From Candidatus Aenigmatarchaeota archaeon (GTDB taxonomy: Archaea; EX4484-52), in the NCBI GenBank assembly GCA_023137195.1, contig JAGLPV010000024.1, forward strand, positions 1 through 60,040: 60,040 nucleotides of DNA, given 5' to 3'. Below are positions 5,670-21,612 of this stretch, piece after piece. The notes beneath the pieces are model-generated. The model made no database searches, was not told the DNA's origin, and saw only the letters and a list, made by a program, of their open reading frames with translations. Both the position numbers and the translations under genes were made by a program. Numbering within the stretch: position 1 is the first letter of the stretch; each line of letters begins with the position of its first letter.

Positions 5670-6365
5670 TTAATTATGTTTTATAGGGTCATTTACAGTA
5701 TCATTTACAGTATCATTTACAGTATCATCCAAAACATAATATCCTGTTTTTGCCGAGCCTTCAAATCGGACAATCTTCTTTGATTTTAAGTCCAACAAAT
5801 CTCTTTTAGCAGTAATTATTGGTATGTTAACCAGAGCAATATATTCCTTTGTGGTTATTTTACCCTTTTCCGCAATATATCTAATTGCTTTCTTCTGCCT
5901 TTCATTTAATTCGTGTTTTTCTTCAATTACATCCATGGAAATTGTCCTGACCTGTGATTTAAAAATAACTTTTGTTTCAATATCGCCTAAATTATACATT
6001 GGTTTCTCATTGCCATTCATACGGCAAAGTTCATTTTCAAGATAAATTCCTGAACCATATCTTTCAATAAGACCAATATCATACATATAGTTGGACAGAA
6101 TAGAATTAACTGGTTTATGAATGGGTTCTTCAGGGCTTACGCCTTCCGGAAATGAACCGGGACTTACAATCTCAATGCGCTCATCATATATAAAAACTCT
6201 TACATCTGCCATACTTTGATAGTCTCTATGAATCAGCCCGTTGATTATTGCCTCTCTTAATGCCTTTAGAGGATATTCATATTTGTCTATTCTCTGGAAC
6301 TTATCTGTTCTTAATCCCATATATCTTATGTTTCTTTTGATGAAATTTTCAGCTTCCAGAACCAT
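5670..6365 (-). pseudogene. N-terminally truncated AlbA_2/HATPase_c_4-type ATP-binding protein
   Basis: The 231 residues correspond to the C-terminal part of the DNA-binding AlbA_2 plus divergent ATPase family: YPLKALREAIINGLIHRDY, VRVFIYDERIEIVSPGSFPEGV, GLIERYGSGI, then a winged helix (about 165-215). The usual AlbA_2 N-terminus is missing. Eight codons upstream of the ATG still read as family sequence (DCDGTLWN) and are then cut by TAG at 6390-6392, so this is a truncation and not a short gene. The C-terminus ends in three tandem VNDT units. An intact relative lies at 20266-21612. Confidence 0.7.
5689..5724. repeat. Three perfect 12-bp in-frame tandem repeats
   Basis: The unit TCATTTACAGTA occurs three times in a row and encodes repeated VNDT at the C-terminus of the truncated ATPase gene. 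A fourth partial unit follows. Copy number could change by slippage without breaking the frame. Confidence 0.85.
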
Positions 6366-6462: not shown

Positions 6463-7350
6463 TTAAGCATTTAAGTCATCTATAATTTTTTGAAAAATAC
6501 GTTTGTATTCATGAATATCTTTTCTGATTTTAATAAACTCCGGTTCGTCATATGGTATAATAGTTCCGTCACTTTTTTTAATTCTCATAAGCGTCGAAGT
6601 ACTAGAATCTTCTGGATTATGAGCTAAATTGTTTCTTTCTTGTTGTATATTTTGGTATAATTCAATCTCATCACGTGTTAAAGAATTTTTATCACATGTG
6701 GCAAAGATTAACAAGGTTCTTAGTAAAAAAGAAGCATCAAAATGTCTGGATTTTAGCAATCTTTGAAATTCGTCTGGCAATGAATATTTTTTTAAGTCTT
6801 CATCATTTTCTTTATACCGTTTAATTAATTTCTGTTTTCTCTCTATTATTTTTTGTTGCTTAACCTTACCTTTTTCTGCTAATAAATTTAGAATCTCTCT
6901 TATCATTTCATCTAGCTCACTTGTTTCAGCCATAACCAATCCACGAAGATTGTTTAAATCCTGAGTTTTTCTAATGGTTGTATAAATAAGTCTCTTTAAT
7001 TTTTCTATATAATTATCTTTACTGGCACAATAAACCCCATCTATTCTTTCTTTTTTGGCAATTATTTTTCTTAGTTTTCCTTCCCCGTACTGAGAATAAA
7101 ATAATATTTCTGTATACAGTTCTTGCTTCCTTATTTTTTCAATAACATCTTGTCCTTGCTCTTCATCTGCAAGTTCATAATCAACGACGATTATATCGAA
7201 TTTAGAAAAATCATATTTTTCATATTTTTCGGGATTTTTATATTCTAGTATAAATCCGTATTTTTTGAGATATGATTCAATAAATTCAATTTCAGATTCT
7301 ACCCAATCCGTGTCATCTTCAACCCATAAAATTCTATATTTTAAATTCAT
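6463..7350 (-). CDS. Response-regulator-like protein with C-terminal HEPN-like motif
   Basis: The 295-residue protein has an N-terminal receiver domain with the full phosphorylation set: D12/D13, D57 at the end of strand 3 (IIVVDYEL), S86 (FYSQ) and K111 (ASKD). A helical, charged region follows (about 120-190). The last third is helical and contains QQERNNLAHNPE, giving R239-N-N-L-A-H244, the RX4-6H pattern of HEPN ribonuclease domains. There is no DNA-binding output domain. The gene starts 2 bases after the upstream kinase-like gene, so the two form one operon. I infer a phosphorylation-controlled RNase or related effector; the HEPN call is by motif only. Confidence 0.7.
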   Translation of the reverse strand: MNLKYRILWVEDDTDWVESEIEFIESYLKKYGFILEYKNPEKYEKYDFSKFDIIVVDYELADEEQGQDVIEKIRKQELYTEILFYSQYGEGKLRKIIAKKERIDGVYCASKDNYIEKLKRLIYTTIRKTQDLNNLRGLVMAETSELDEMIREILNLLAEKGKVKQQKIIERKQKLIKRYKENDEDLKKYSLPDEFQRLLKSRHFDASFLLRTLLIFATCDKNSLTRDEIELYQNIQQERNNLAHNPEDSSTSTLMRIKKSDGTIIPYDEPEFIKIRKDIHEYKRIFQKIIDDLNA

Positions 7351-7352
7351 AA

Positions 7353-9536
7353 TTATTTAGCAAATGTTAATGTAAAAGTTATTCCCTTTGTTTTTTTATT
7401 AGATGCAACGGAAATATTGGCATTGAAAACAGATTTTAGTATTTCTTCAACATGAAATAATCCTATTCCTGCTCCATCTGTAGAAGAAGTTTTTAGATTA
7501 AAAATTTCATCCGTGTTATTTTGGAATTTTTCATTTATTCCTGATCCGTTATCCATCACAAAAATTTCCAAAGTTTTATCATCTCCATATAGTTCAATAT
7601 TGCAATTTTTTGCCTTTGCCTTTTTTGCATTATCAAGCAAATTATCAAATATGACTAAAACATCAAAAGGTCTAAAAGAAGTAAGAAAATCTTTAGTTGT
7701 ATTGTCTTTTATAGAAATTTCAAGTCCGTCGGCTGCAACTGGAATATAGTCGTCTTCTAAGTATTTTTTAATTATATTGTTCAAACTTCTTTCTTTTTTT
7801 GTCGCAAGCTCATTCATTCCACTTCCTGTTGCAAATCTTGCAATAGTATTTATTTTGTCATTTTCTTTTTTTATTTTTTGCAAATATTTTTCTAATTTTT
7901 CATATTTTTGACCAGTTATGGCATTAAAAGCATGTAATATATAATTATCTATTGTCTTGGAACTGATACCAATTTGATGGTGATAACTCTGAAGATTTTT
8001 CAGATTTTTACTAGAAAAATTTCTTAAAGCAGATACTTGATCTTCTGATCTTTTTATTTTACTTTCCTGTTTTTGAATAATATGTTTTTGTTGTTCTTGT
8101 GTTTCCTCAATTTTTTTTACTGCTTTTAGTAACTTTTCGTCCCCTGTTTTTCTGGCCTCTTTCTTCAATTGTCCTGTTGCTCCTTGAAAACCTTGTTGGG
8201 TTTTTTCTTCAATTTTTTCTAAAAATATATAACTATGCTCTATATCCAAAAAATCTTTTGATTTCGTAAGTTTTTTTATCATTACCTGAATTTCTTTTTC
8301 TTTTTCTTTTGGAAAAAATTCTTTTTCAATATTTCTTTTATATGTCCAATTAAGAGTACCAATAACGTAAGACTCGAGTCTTCGGAGTACCTTTTCTTCA
8401 AAACAAGATTTTAAATTTTTAACACTCGTTGTTGCAATTAGACCCCCATCACGACTAGTAGTTTCTTTAAATTCATCACTTGTATTATTTATATCAATAA
8501 AACCCACAACATCACGAGTTCCTAAGTATCTTGCATATCCTTGTTGTTTACGTAAATTTACTCCAAGAGAATCATCATCTAATTCACCATAAGGAAAGAC
8601 TCTAAAACCATTTTTATACAAAAATATGGACCCGAACTCTTTTGAGCGAACACCCATATAATGCTTGAATGTTATTTTTGTAGGAGTATTTAAATAAAAT
8701 AATTGAATTCTTATATCAAAAAGAAATTTTTTCCATTCATTCTTTTCTTTTATCTTGTAAATTTTCTCTCCTCTATCTATTAATTCTGTGATTATATATT
8801 CCCCATTTTGAGAAATATCTATATTTATTTGTGTTGTTTTTAGAGCAAGTTTTTCAAAAATAAAATTTTCTACCTTTTTATTATCAAGAAAAACATCAAA
8901 AACATCTTCAGAATCTTTTTTTATAGGATTAATAAGTTTTGATAAATGTGTCTTTAACTTTTCTTTTTCGCTTTTTTTACCATCCGTCCATTCTTCCCTT
9001 AGTTCTGATATTTCTAAAATAGTTCCGTGTTTTATTTCAGAATATGGATTTTCATCTAAAGTTTCATGAGTAACATCTATATTAATAAAATCTTTTTTAG
9101 AATCTTTTTCAAACAATTCCCATTCTACAGTAATTTTCTCAATTTTAGGATTTTCTTCTTCTTTAATTGAAATGAGTTTTAATTTTTTCCCTATACGATC
9201 ACAAGCAAATCTTCCAACTCCTTTTGCTCCTGCAAAAGCATGGCGAGTCTTTATTTTATTTCTGTAATCATTGTACCCTCTATTTTCCGTGTTATCTGCT
9301 TTTGCTGAGTACCCAACAAAAAGCCATTTATCTTTTATGTCCTTAATATTCATTCCTTTTCCATCATCTTTGATAACAATTTTATCTTCATAAAAATTGA
9401 CATCTACTCTTTCTGCGTATGCATCGAATGAGTTTTTCACTAATTCAAAAATAGCAATATATTTATCAGTAATAAGTTCTTTGCCAATAATATTTTTTAG
9501 AGCTGCACTAACCTTAAATTGTAATTTTTCTTTCAT
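7353..9536 (-). CDS. Double-GHKL ATPase: N-terminal MORC/Hsp90-like module and C-terminal histidine-kinase module
   Basis: The 727-residue protein has two ATP-binding folds. The first (about 1-190) shows ELVKNSFDA (31-39), DDGKGM (57-62) and GAKGVGRF (103-110), as in Hsp90/MutL/MORC proteins. A transducer-like region with YKNGFRVFPYGE and KETTSRDGGL follows (about 210-370). A coiled coil (about 405-510) leads to a possible phospho-acceptor, H519/H520 in SYHHQIG. The C-terminal kinase ATPase has DNLLDNA (631-637), DNGSGI (662-667) and GAGIGL (688-693). It lies between the methyltransferase (4-base gap) and the receiver gene (2-base gap). Its likely role is to sense a DNA or stress signal and pass phosphate to the receiver protein. 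Confidence 0.75.
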   Translation of the reverse strand: MKEKLQFKVSAALKNIIGKELITDKYIAIFELVKNSFDAYAERVDVNFYEDKIVIKDDGKGMNIKDIKDKWLFVGYSAKADNTENRGYNDYRNKIKTRHAFAGAKGVGRFACDRIGKKLKLISIKEEENPKIEKITVEWELFEKDSKKDFINIDVTHETLDENPYSEIKHGTILEISELREEWTDGKKSEKEKLKTHLSKLINPIKKDSEDVFDVFLDNKKVENFIFEKLALKTTQINIDISQNGEYIITELIDRGEKIYKIKEKNEWKKFLFDIRIQLFYLNTPTKITFKHYMGVRSKEFGSIFLYKNGFRVFPYGELDDDSLGVNLRKQQGYARYLGTRDVVGFIDINNTSDEFKETTSRDGGLIATTSVKNLKSCFEEKVLRRLESYVIGTLNWTYKRNIEKEFFPKEKEKEIQVMIKKLTKSKDFLDIEHSYIFLEKIEEKTQQGFQGATGQLKKEARKTGDEKLLKAVKKIEETQEQQKHIIQKQESKIKRSEDQVSALRNFSSKNLKNLQSYHHQIGISSKTIDNYILHAFNAITGQKYEKLEKYLQKIKKENDKINTIARFATGSGMNELATKKERSLNNIIKKYLEDDYIPVAADGLEISIKDNTTKDFLTSFRPFDVLVIFDNLLDNAKKAKAKNCNIELYGDDKTLEIFVMDNGSGINEKFQNNTDEIFNLKTSSTDGAGIGLFHVEEILKSVFNANISVASNKKTKGITFTLTFAK

Positions 9537-9540
9537 AATA

Positions 9541-10740
9541 TTACTTTAAAAGTTGAGCTAATATAAGTCCTGCTTGTTCACCAAAAAGAGGAGGTATTGC
9601 ATTTCCAACTTGTGTATATCGTGGCACTTCTATCTTTCTCAATTTTCCACCAGTTGTGTATTTTTCCCTGAATTCAAACCAGTCATCAAAAGTTTGAATT
9701 CTAGCATATTCTCTAACGGTTAAAATCCTTGGTTCGGAATAATGGATGTAATCATCAGGCAATGTTGTTAATGTTGGACTTTTTTGATTCATATCCAATG
9801 GAATCGTGCATCTCTTTTTAAGTTTAAATTTGTCCTTAGTTGATTCGTTAATTGTTTTATTTCTAGAACAATTAGTAAGGATATAGTTAAATTTATTTAT
9901 TGTTTTCTTGTTATGGTTTGCGAATCTATGACTATCTGGGAAATTGTAATCACAATCTGTTTTTATATATTTCTGATAATTTGTTTTTGGTTTTGAATAT
10001 ATACCTTCTTTGAATTTTTTATAACTAATTGATGAAATTTCTCCGTTAATTCTTTCTAAATCAGAAATTGCAGATTTTACAGAATTATTGGCTTTTAAAC
10101 CCTTTTTTTTCAAAAACGAAACTTTATTATTAACAATTAATTCAAAAAATTCTTTAGGGTCTCCTGATTTTAATCCAACTAGGATAAATCGTTTCCTCTT
10201 TTGGGGGACACCAAACTTAGAAAAATCAATTATCCTTCCTTCAACTCCATAACCTATCTCTTTTAATTTTTTTTGAACATAAATGGAATATGCAGTTCCT
10301 TTAGACTTCTTATTCTTAAATCCAATTGTAAATCCTTTTACATTTTCAAAAAAAATCATCTTTGGTTTAACTAGTGAAATAAATTTTATATAAGAATCAA
10401 TTAATTTATTTCTACTATCTCCTTCGTTTCTTCTACCTGCTAATGAAAAGCCCTGACAAGGAGGTCCACCAACAACCATATCTACTTTTCCACGAAGTTT
10501 TTCGAGTTCTTTTTCATAGTTAACCAGAACTTCATTGATATCATGCGATGTTTGGGGGAGCCAGATAGGCCATTTAAAATGTTTTTTCTTCTCAATCAAG
10601 TTGTGTTTTAGGGTCTCAAATGCCATTGGACTTTTTTCAATAGCAAAAAGTCCATGCCAGCCCGATTTATACAATCCTAAAGAAAGACCACCACAACCTG
10701 CAAATATATCAATATAAGTAAACTTAGATTGCTTCACCAT
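9541..10740 (-). CDS. DNA (cytosine-5-)-methyltransferase
   Basis: The 399-residue enzyme has the motifs of C5 methyltransferases in order: motif I DIFAGCGGLS (11-20) for SAM binding, motif IV GGPPCQGFS with catalytic C95, motif VI ENV (132-134), motif VIII in FSKFGVPQKRKR, and motif X QVGNAIPP near the C-terminus. It should methylate cytosine in a short DNA site that I cannot predict. No restriction endonuclease is adjacent. It heads an operon with the double-GHKL and receiver proteins. A Mig-like glycosylase, which would repair deaminated 5-methylcytosine, lies just upstream on the same strand. Confidence 0.92.
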   Translation of the reverse strand: MVKQSKFTYIDIFAGCGGLSLGLYKSGWHGLFAIEKSPMAFETLKHNLIEKKKHFKWPIWLPQTSHDINEVLVNYEKELEKLRGKVDMVVGGPPCQGFSLAGRRNEGDSRNKLIDSYIKFISLVKPKMIFFENVKGFTIGFKNKKSKGTAYSIYVQKKLKEIGYGVEGRIIDFSKFGVPQKRKRFILVGLKSGDPKEFFELIVNNKVSFLKKKGLKANNSVKSAISDLERINGEISSISYKKFKEGIYSKPKTNYQKYIKTDCDYNFPDSHRFANHNKKTINKFNYILTNCSRNKTINESTKDKFKLKKRCTIPLDMNQKSPTLTTLPDDYIHYSEPRILTVREYARIQTFDDWFEFREKYTTGGKLRKIEVPRYTQVGNAIPPLFGEQAGLILAQLLK

Positions 10741-10785: not shown

Positions 10786-11439
10786 TTACCTTGATGCTAT
10801 TTTGATAAAAAAAACGCATTTTTTAGTCAATGGACACTTATCGCACGACGGTTTTGTCTTGCAAACCAACGCCCCGAAATCTAGCAATCCCCAGTTATAT
10901 TCCTTGAAATTCTTTCTTGGAAGAATTTCATTTGTCTTGTCTTGTATTTCTTTATTATCTCTTAAGTCTTTAATATTATCAATGTGAAAATACCGGGAAA
11001 TTATCCTGCTTGTATTTACATCTAAGATTGGAGCCCGTTTATTAAAACCAAAGCATAGAGTAGCATTAGTAACATACAATCCAATATGTGGTATTTCCAA
11101 TAGACTTTCTATCTCACCCGGGAGATTATCATTAAAATTTTTGTGAATATAATTTGAAATCTCTTTTAATCCTCTAGTTCTCTGTTTTCCTAATCCTAAT
11201 CTTGAAATTTTATTAAAAATCTCGGAATAACTTGCTCTATGAAGTTTTATATTTGAACTATACTCTATTATAACAGGATACATATATTTATCAACCGTTT
11301 CTGCTTTTGTCTTTTTAAGAAATAATTCTGTTATCATTACTTGAAAAGGTTCTAAATCTTCCCTTCTCCAGAAAAAATCTCGTTTATTCAGACTGTAAAA
11401 ATCCAGTATCTTCTTTCGAAAATAGGTATTTTCAATCAT
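10786..11439 (-). CDS. HhH-GPD base-excision glycosylase with 4Fe-4S cluster, Mig/TDG-like
   Basis: The 217-residue protein has the HhH-GPD fold: ITELFLKKTKAETV (36-49), the helix-hairpin-helix EIPHIGLY (115-122), catalytic D140 in ILDVN, and cysteines 193, 199, 202 and 208 for an iron-sulfur cluster. Aligned by spacing to endonuclease III, the lyase lysine (K120 there) is Tyr122 here, as in the thymine-DNA mismatch glycosylase Mig. That enzyme removes T from T:G pairs made by deamination of 5-methylcytosine. Placement next to a C5 methyltransferase fits exactly. The first cysteine spacing is five residues, one fewer than usual. Confidence 0.82.
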   Translation of the reverse strand: MIENTYFRKKILDFYSLNKRDFFWRREDLEPFQVMITELFLKKTKAETVDKYMYPVIIEYSSNIKLHRASYSEIFNKISRLGLGKQRTRGLKEISNYIHKNFNDNLPGEIESLLEIPHIGLYVTNATLCFGFNKRAPILDVNTSRIISRYFHIDNIKDLRDNKEIQDKTNEILPRKNFKEYNWGLLDFGALVCKTKPSCDKCPLTKKCVFFIKIASR

Positions 11440-20259: not shown

Positions 20260-20265
20260 TTGTCT

Positions 20266-21612
20266 ATGGATGGGAGAATAAAGCAGTTGCTTGAAGAAGG
20301 AGAAGGACAGTTTGTTGAATTCAAGGAAAATATTGACAAGTCCCTGGCAAAGGAAATTGTTGCTTTTGCCAATGCAACGGGCGGAAAAATATACCTTGGG
20401 ATAGATGATAAAAATATTTTGAAAGGAATTGAAGTGACTAACAGGTTAAAATCACAGGTAACAGATATTGCGAAAAACTGCGACCCGAAAATACCTGTGT
20501 CTCTTGGGAAAATAGAAAATTTACTTATCATAACCGTTTTGGAAAGCGTGAACAAACCGCATCAATGCAAAGAAGGTTTTCATTTGCGGCTCGGGGCAAA
20601 TTCCCAGAAATTAACAAGGGATGAAATCATCAAATTCTGCATCAGGGAAAACAAAATAAGGTTTGATGAGCAGATTTGCAAAAATTTTGATTTTGCGGAT
20701 TTTGATGACGAAAAATTTGAATATTACCTGAAACTTGCGCGCATTTCAAATACACTTGACAAAAAAGAGTTGTTGAGAAATATTCGTGCTTTAACTGTCG
20801 AGGGAATGACCAATGCAGGTGTTTTGTTTTTCGCAAAAGAGCCATACAAATATATAATGACTTCAAGGATAAGATGCGTGCTTTTCAAGGGGAATGAAAG
20901 AGTCAGAATTCTGGATAAAAAAGAAGTTGATAAAGGAATTATCGGCAATATTGAATATGCTGTGAACTATCTGGATGAGCATGTTCCTGTAAGGTTTGAA
21001 ATTAAAGGCCTTTACAGGAAAGAGTTTCCGCAGTTTCCGCAGGATGCGTATAGGGAAGCAATTGTCAATGCTGTAATTCATAGGGATTATTTTGAAAATG
21101 GAGAAGTTGCAGTTGAAAAATCCCGGAATTTTATTTATATCAACAACCCGGGCGGGGTTGTTTCTTCGCTGTCAAAAAAGGATTTTGGAACACTAAGTTG
21201 GCCAAGAAACAGGTTGCTTGCTGATTTGCTTTCAAGAACGTATCTTATGGAAAAGGCAGGAACTGGAATCAGGAGGATAAAAGATGCGTCTTTAGAGAAT
21301 AAAAATCTTGTAGAATTTAGGGACAGGGGAACTTATTTTTTCGCTGTATTTGAAAATAAGGAAAGTCCTGATGTTTCTAAAGAAAGTTCCCAGAAAACTG
21401 TGGAGAAAACTGTGGAGAAAACTGTGGAGAAAATAATCAATGTTATAAAAGAAAATCCAAAAGTCACAGTCAAGGAACTTGTTGCAAGAACCGGTCTTTC
21501 AAGAAGAGGTGTTGAATGGAACATCTTAAAGCTAAAAGAGAAAGGTTTATTAAAAAGAATAGGACCGGATAAAGGAGGATATTGGAAAATAATTATGGAG
21601 GAGAATAAATAA
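20266..21612 (+). CDS. AlbA_2-type DNA-binding ATPase, putative transcriptional regulator
   Basis: The protein of about 448 residues has the AlbA_2 domain at the N-terminus (EFKENIDKSLAKEIVAFANATGGKIYLGI), a central region, the divergent ATPase segment (DAYREAIVNAVIHRDYFE, NNPGGV, LMEKAGTGIRRI) and a C-terminal winged helix (VTVKELVARTGLSRRGVEWNILKLKEKGLLKRIG). Between the ATPase and winged helix is a linker of three VEKT units encoded by 12-bp repeats. Such proteins bind DNA and are common in accessory regions. I start at ATG 20266, not TTG 20260. It is the intact relative of the remnant at 5670-6365. Confidence 0.82.
   Translation: MDGRIKQLLEEGEGQFVEFKENIDKSLAKEIVAFANATGGKIYLGIDDKNILKGIEVTNRLKSQVTDIAKNCDPKIPVSLGKIENLLIITVLESVNKPHQCKEGFHLRLGANSQKLTRDEIIKFCIRENKIRFDEQICKNFDFADFDDEKFEYYLKLARISNTLDKKELLRNIRALTVEGMTNAGVLFFAKEPYKYIMTSRIRCVLFKGNERVRILDKKEVDKGIIGNIEYAVNYLDEHVPVRFEIKGLYRKEFPQFPQDAYREAIVNAVIHRDYFENGEVAVEKSRNFIYINNPGGVVSSLSKKDFGTLSWPRNRLLADLLSRTYLMEKAGTGIRRIKDASLENKNLVEFRDRGTYFFAVFENKESPDVSKESSQKTVEKTVEKTVEKIINVIKENPKVTVKELVARTGLSRRGVEWNILKLKEKGLLKRIGPDKGGYWKIIMEENK
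21394..21429. repeat. Three perfect 12-bp in-frame tandem repeats
   Basis: The unit AAAACTGTGGAG occurs three times in a row and encodes repeated KTVE in the linker before the winged helix of the AlbA_2-type protein. The period of 12 equals that of the repeat in the truncated relative at 5689-5724, although the sequence differs. Confidence 0.85.

Follow-up and report, generated by a model that had tools for sequence, protein, structure and literature searches.

The gene at positions 6463-7350 (minus strand) of the analysed DNA, a stretch of 60,040 nucleotides from a Candidatus Aenigmatarchaeota archaeon that is referred to below as the window, encodes a response regulator in which a receiver domain is fused to a HEPN-like output domain. 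Together with a C5-cytosine DNA methylase and a paraMORC-type histidine kinase it forms one operon, of which it is the last gene and which, as judged from sequence comparison, is conserved in bacteria and archaea. This operon probably represents a system of immunity or cell suicide that has so far been overlooked, and the reading preferred here, with a probability of about 70%, is that the regulator is the predicted effector of a two-component system for immunity or suicide which is linked to DNA methylation and whose effectors can be exchanged.

The glycosylase, methylase, kinase and regulator genes of the window are read in the same direction, with the HhH-GPD gene next upstream of that of the methylase. 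The methylase gene is separated from the kinase gene by 4 bases, and the latter from the regulator gene by 2 bases. The features of the operon are as follows.

10786..11439, minus strand: HhH-GPD base-excision DNA glycosylase, probably the T:G repair enzyme that accompanies the methylase (Pfam HhH-GPD, E = 3e-6)
9541..10740, minus strand: C5-cytosine DNA methyltransferase (DNA_methylase, E = 4e-55)
7353..9536, minus strand: paraMORC-type sensor histidine kinase of 727 residues, with an N-terminal HATPase_c_3 (GHKL) domain and a C-terminal dimerisation/His helix plus HATPase_c domain (Pfam)
7977..7979, minus strand: codon of the predicted phospho-acceptor H520 of the kinase (His in 80/80 sequences)
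6463..7350, minus strand: response regulator with receiver and HEPN-like output domain (295 amino acids, ATG start; Response_reg, E = 1.2e-5; 65 homologues)
6985..7350, minus strand: receiver (REC) domain, about residues 1-122 (Pfam Response_reg; conserved E11/D12, D57 and S86)
7180..7182, minus strand: codon of D57, predicted phospho-acceptor (Asp in 67/67 homologues)
6466..6978, minus strand: HEPN-like output domain, residues 125-295 (AlphaFold, Pfam HEPN families among homologues, hhalign against HEPN_RiboL-PSP members)
6940..6945, minus strand: R136-G137, N-terminal end of the first output-domain helix (invariant, 65/65)
6910..6912, minus strand: D147, acidic residue in the first helix of the output domain (D/E in 64/65; in hhalign register with the conserved Glu of HEPN_RiboL-PSP)
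6619..6636, minus strand: RNNLAH (R239-H244), predicted catalytic R-X4-H motif (R and H in 65/65, N240 in 60/65)

The Response_reg match of the window regulator extended over residues 7-95, and the same Pfam model was found in 49 of the 65 regulators. A sequence-only reading of the gene had proposed that phosphorylation of D57 could switch an RNase. D57 exists and is the invariant receiver aspartate, and the regulator gene adjoins that of a kinase with a conserved histidine and ATP boxes, which are the two partners of a two-component system. The proposed switching of the predicted HEPN RNase by phosphorylation of D57 thus gains support from the neighbouring kinase and its invariant His, and the HEPN domain, being fused to the receiver, is probably gated by phosphorylation. 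The usual Lys of the receiver is mostly Arg among the homologues, so that signalling may be atypical. The top single-sequence Pfam matches of the regulator, CHASE8 and DUF6586, were below the cut-off and not common to the homologues and were dismissed as coiled-coil noise. No match of the regulator was obtained with the PADLOC 2.0 models of known defence systems.

The starting point of the sequence-only reading, the motif RNNLAH at residues 239-244, is present at 6619-6636 on the minus strand; the span 6463-6745, to which that reading referred, corresponds to regulator residues 202-295. In a single sequence the motif is weak, since at least one RX4H was found in 16% of the shuffled versions of the window regulator, which contains 18 Arg and 3 His. 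Because RX4H is so frequent by chance in one protein, relatives were gathered through the kinase and not through the motif, which gave a set of 80 loci from bacteria and archaea. Sixty-five regulators from many phyla, that of the window included, were full length with a helical output domain. R239 and H244 are two of only seven invariant columns in the full-length alignment of these proteins. Within the output domain, whose mean pairwise identity is about 22%, four of 165 columns are invariant (R136, G137, R239 and H244), N240 is kept in 60 of the 65 and position 147 is occupied by Asp or Glu in all except one. In HEPN proteins the motif is R-X4-6-H, as a rule with a polar residue after the Arg, and RNxxAH agrees with this. 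It is the conservation of R239 and H244 across divergent homologues that makes the motif strong; other RX4H matches in the homologues were scattered and out of register. Variation of R or H among homologues had been named beforehand as an argument against a HEPN domain, and neither residue varies in any of the 65. In the first helix, which it opens, R136-G137 shows the same degree of conservation as the predicted catalytic motif.

A profile of the output domain alone retrieved five further members (L128, L129, L130, L132 and L134), all of them with RNxxAH and all adjoining a kinase gene. In the sampled genomes its yield was 4 in 247 Bacteroidota and 2 in 348 Pseudomonadota, and none was found in 246 genomes of the phylum of L073 (Methanoregula); these counts leave out the centre genomes and standalone proteins of about 200 residues.

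The HEPN assignment was examined with sequence profiles, as the sequence-only reading had suggested. When the 65 output domains were scanned one by one with Pfam, HEPN_RiboL-PSP was the commonest match (nine members, best 7e-6), followed by HEPN_Swt1 (six), HEPN_MAE_28990 (three) and Abi_2 (two), with single matches to HEPN_LA2681 and Ribonuc_2-5A. Among the single proteins listed, none passed the curated cut-off of a HEPN model, and the window regulator itself matched no such model. In the L073 genome the regulator was the sole HEPN_RiboL-PSP match. Comparison of the output domain with 22 HEPN_RiboL-PSP members by hhalign gave a score of 31.7, against at most 12.9 for 100 column shuffles and at most 17.6 for unrelated families or other domains of the same operon. 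In a fuller alignment the RN..AH motifs coincided and the conserved acidic residue was paired with the Glu of the HEPN family. With RNxxAH masked, the score dropped to about 17, no better than for an unrelated helical family, which indicates that most of the hhalign signal comes from the active-site region and was counted as a weakness. Both profiles also matched standalone RN-x-FAH proteins, about 200 residues long, which thus bridge the regulators and HEPN_RiboL-PSP. Sequence and profile searches of the PDB returned no HEPN chain. On balance the profiles favour HEPN, with matches that are sub-threshold, repeated and specific among the homologues.

AlphaFold models of the window domain and of a compact archaeal homologue had pLDDT values of 85.8 and 92.4, respectively. 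In both models extra helical elements precede the motif helix, and the motif ends the long penultimate helix and is followed by a beta hairpin and a long last helix. HEPN domains are described as four-helix bundles in which helix 3 ends with the motif and inserts may occur between helices 2 and 3, and in Csx1 a beta hairpin directly follows the motif (PMC3710099). The predicted helix order, helical insert and motif position of the models fit this anatomy. Foldseek searches with both models against the PDB and BFVD gave no significant match to any fold, so that the comparison of folds speaks neither for nor against HEPN; the first PDB entry listed in one search was the HEPN RNase Csx1, which at E = 0.4 was not counted as evidence. 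A predicted fold other than HEPN, named beforehand as a finding that would speak against the assignment, did not emerge: the models gave a confident helical domain with the motif placed as in HEPN proteins, and the fold search left the matter where it was.

The 16% of shuffles with RX4H and the silence of Foldseek are what could be said for a coincidence, namely that the motif arose in an unrelated helical output domain. This reading was already disfavoured, and the invariance in 65 of 65 regulators, the HEPN profile matches and the bridging standalone HEPN-like proteins render it highly improbable. The HEPN-like nature of the RX4H output domain is supported by the invariance of R and H and by the sequence profiles. 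HEPN membership is therefore well supported from sequence, the profiles favouring it, and the fold, on which Foldseek was silent, counts neither way.

In the set of loci the methylase gene is present in 79 of 80 and lies directly upstream of the kinase gene in 62, and the kinase and regulator genes mostly overlap by 4 bases. The N-terminal HATPase_c_3 domain of the window kinase (E = 1e-22, Pfam) and the adjacent methylase gene identify the protein as paraMORC-type. Both of its ATP-binding sites are conserved, with N636, D662, G688, G690 and G692 in the C-terminal one, and the invariant H520 sits just before the C-terminal ATPase. Deamination of the product of C5 methylation gives a T:G mismatch. 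Genes for T:G repair are found near other loci as well, with HhH-GPD relatives at five and Vsr at 16, which would fit an active C5 methylase.

No homologue of the regulator was found in 100 archaeal relatives, including three searched members of the same genus, so that the operon was probably acquired by the window genome. Searches for the regulator in plasmids (tblastn) and in viral contigs (single-sequence scan) returned nothing. Elsewhere in the window, HATPase_c_4/RecG-C-like proteins are encoded at 5670-6365 (minus strand), where the protein is short and perhaps truncated, and at 20260-21612 (plus strand), the second being judged by eye. Both genes carry perfect in-frame 12-bp tandem repeats near their 3' ends, NDTV x3 at 5689-5728 and TVEK x3 at 21392-21433, respectively, and these tracts could be length-variable.

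Evidence on the role of the output domain came from the sister loci. At eleven loci, all from Bacteroidota, the regulator has about 235 residues and lacks the HEPN domain. A downstream gene with an invariant HG and C is found at ten of them, and the contig of the remaining one (L052) ends before it. The 64 other HEPN loci all lack this gene, and one of the same kind occurs in a more distant plasmid system (L002). The contexts of the HG and C, such as LGHG...(S/T)C(N/R)S, resemble those of CHAT/caspase-like proteases; the five HG/C proteins scanned with Pfam matched no model, so that the term caspase-like refers to motif conservation only. These genes, and those of two loci of another type discussed below, are located as follows.

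L028 8025-8780, L041 8010-8753 and L002 7785-8465, also L064, L071, L078, L080, L081, L083, L084 and L087: caspase/CHAT-like genes behind non-HEPN regulators, with invariant HG and C
L034 3922-5001 and 7241-7615, L037 3922-5001 and 7241-7624: HpaII restriction endonuclease with bare CheY-like receiver and paraMORC-kinase

In a tree of the paraMORC half the HEPN and non-HEPN loci are interleaved, and at least six changes are forced by the starred branches. In four sister pairs (L060/L083, L074/L081, L054/L064 and L071/L075) the methylases are 74-85% identical and kinase residues 1-400 are 75-87% identical. From roughly residue 489 onwards, a short distance ahead of H520, the two kinases of a pair share only about 8-20% of their residues, and the two regulators 22-29%. 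In the HEPN/HEPN control pair L060/L089, of which L060 is from the mesophile Flavobacterium swingsii, identity after the joint is 72-98%. These comparisons place a recombination joint near residue 489 of the kinase in the numbering of the window protein, the kinase core, regulator and effector moving as a block and the methylase and paraMORC half staying in place.

That a caspase-like gene can take its place suggests that the HEPN regulator acts as an effector. The exchange also argues against the view that the HEPN fold binds RNA or partner proteins without cutting and that the regulator tunes the expression or activity of the methylase. Some HEPN families do lack the motif and are non-catalytic (PMC3710099), and regulation of restriction-modification was an earlier guess for a related two-component system (PMC8011034). 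However, Arg, His, Asn and the acidic residue have hardly changed in a domain with a mean identity of 22%, which makes a pure binding domain unlikely, and no DNA-binding domain was found in the regulator by Pfam scans. A non-cutting role is therefore considered improbable.

A similarly low probability is given to a restriction-modification system of the conventional type, with the paraMORC protein as the DNA-cutting or scanning subunit, the receiver protein as an accessory regulator and HEPN as a mere back-up suicide effector. The N-terminal half of the kinase does resemble the BbrUII/HgiDII restriction proteins, and MORC/paraMORC genes are known to accompany cytosine methylases and Vsr (PMC2292703). 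In addition, the relatives L034 and L037, with their HpaII-type endonuclease and bare receiver, are predicted to encode a restriction system that has a two-component pair of its own. In the window, however, only GHKL domains were detected in the kinase and no nuclease domain was found in the trio by Pfam, and the invariant His before the second ATPase is the layout of a histidine kinase. The cognate restriction endonuclease expected of a type II system is likewise missing; an HpaII-type enzyme was found only at L034 and L037 and, apart from HNH genes at a few loci, no restriction enzyme recurs at the HEPN loci.

Other arrangements were also seen. Receiver-only regulators with no evident adjacent effector are encoded at L055 (6624-6998) and L068 (7325-7729). 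Distant plasmid paraMORC-kinases (L003 4995-8511, L004 4986-8367, L005, L006 and L009) are followed by an HNH gene or by regulators whose C-terminal domains are of other kinds and, one haloarchaeal plasmid included, are candidate further output types of the same kind. Since the regulators of L002-L009 have no aligned HEPN domain, these plasmid systems were left out of the HEPN alignment.

For the preferred reading, an effector at the end of a methylation-linked two-component pathway, the following sequence of events may be envisaged. The methylase would mark self DNA, and the paraMORC half would detect DNA on which the mark is missing or has been lost, damaged DNA or another sign of infection. 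The kinase core would pass the signal on, leading to phosphorylation of D57, whereupon the receiver would dimerise or free the HEPN domain. Paired HEPN sites, probably in a dimer by analogy with other HEPN RNases, would then cut RNA, so that growth stops and the invader is limited. A more general proposal, for and against which the odds appear evenly balanced, is that a MORC-type ATPase-histidine kinase reads methylation status and fires plug-in death effectors via a phosphorelay, sensor and output cassette being recombined at a fixed joint. Recombination of the sensor (methylase plus paraMORC half) with an output cassette would turn restriction-modification into methylation-controlled programmed cell death in bacteria and archaea.

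Receiver domains usually drive transcription factors or signalling enzymes. A phosphorylation-gated RNase toxin linked to a DNA methylase would, if confirmed, bring together within a single operon abortive infection, the epigenetic marking of self and two-component signalling. For the prokaryotic relatives of MORC a path from DNA sensing to cell suicide would be predicted, and the exchange of HEPN and caspase-like effectors at one joint would represent a natural experiment in modular immunity. Detocs, which Rousset reportedly described in 2023, is said to be a two-component defence system with genes for a sensor kinase, a receiver buffer and a receiver-effector. Like the window operon it is said to combine a kinase with a receiver-fused toxic effector; its sensor and effector are reportedly different, and it is said to have neither a methylase nor a paraMORC half.

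The paraMORC restriction-modification operons of Iyer 2008 (PMC2292703) share with the window the GHKL front half and the cytosine methylase, and with the trio family the Vsr neighbours and exchangeable C-terminal domains (nuclease, TIR). They differ in that the back half of the window protein is a histidine kinase that would signal to a separate receiver-HEPN protein. PrrC, RloC and Ymh-HEPN fused to paraMORC (Anantharaman 2013, PMC3710099) have in common with the window the R-X4-6-H motif, the helix order predicted for the output domain, the methylase/GHKL context and the expected RNA cleavage, whereas in the window HEPN is fused to a receiver domain; a receiver-HEPN fusion did not turn up in that paper. 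HEPN_RiboL-PSP (PF18735) is listed for the defence systems PD-T4-2, PD-T4-5, PD-T7-3 and ApeA (PMC10952713). It is the profile closest to the output domain, with a match below the curated cut-off, and the partner genes differ. In the DefensePredictor study HATPase and REC are named only in the legend of a figure of predicted, unvalidated systems, which may or may not include the window operon (PMC13092281).

The closest precedent is the methylase, HATPase_c_3-kinase and receiver trio of Bellieny-Rabelo 2021, with PF19192 (Response_reg_2) and PF19191 (HEF_HK) (PMC8011034). The PF19192/PF19191 pair resembles the window in having a C5 methylase, a kinase with N-terminal HATPase_c_3 and C-terminal HATPase_c and a receiver protein, and in its ties to restriction-modification genes and paraMORCs. 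Membership of the window proteins in Response_reg_2/HEF_HK was rejected since they match neither Pfam model; PF19192 was found weakly in only 5 of the 65 regulators (best 0.0023). By these profile comparisons the window proteins are placed as a sister group of Response_reg_2/HEF_HK and not as members. The main text of PMC8011034 does not mention HEPN or an RNase, and neither an output domain nor an exchange of effectors is named in the parts consulted. In the literature searched, which did not extend to subscription journals and preprints, no receiver-HEPN output or HEPN/caspase-like swap was found. The gene trio is thus partly known, and the receiver-HEPN output and the effector swap are apparently new within that literature. 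With the regulator, the trio, for which the 2021 description gave no effector, would gain a defined output, and its association with the methylase would be accounted for.
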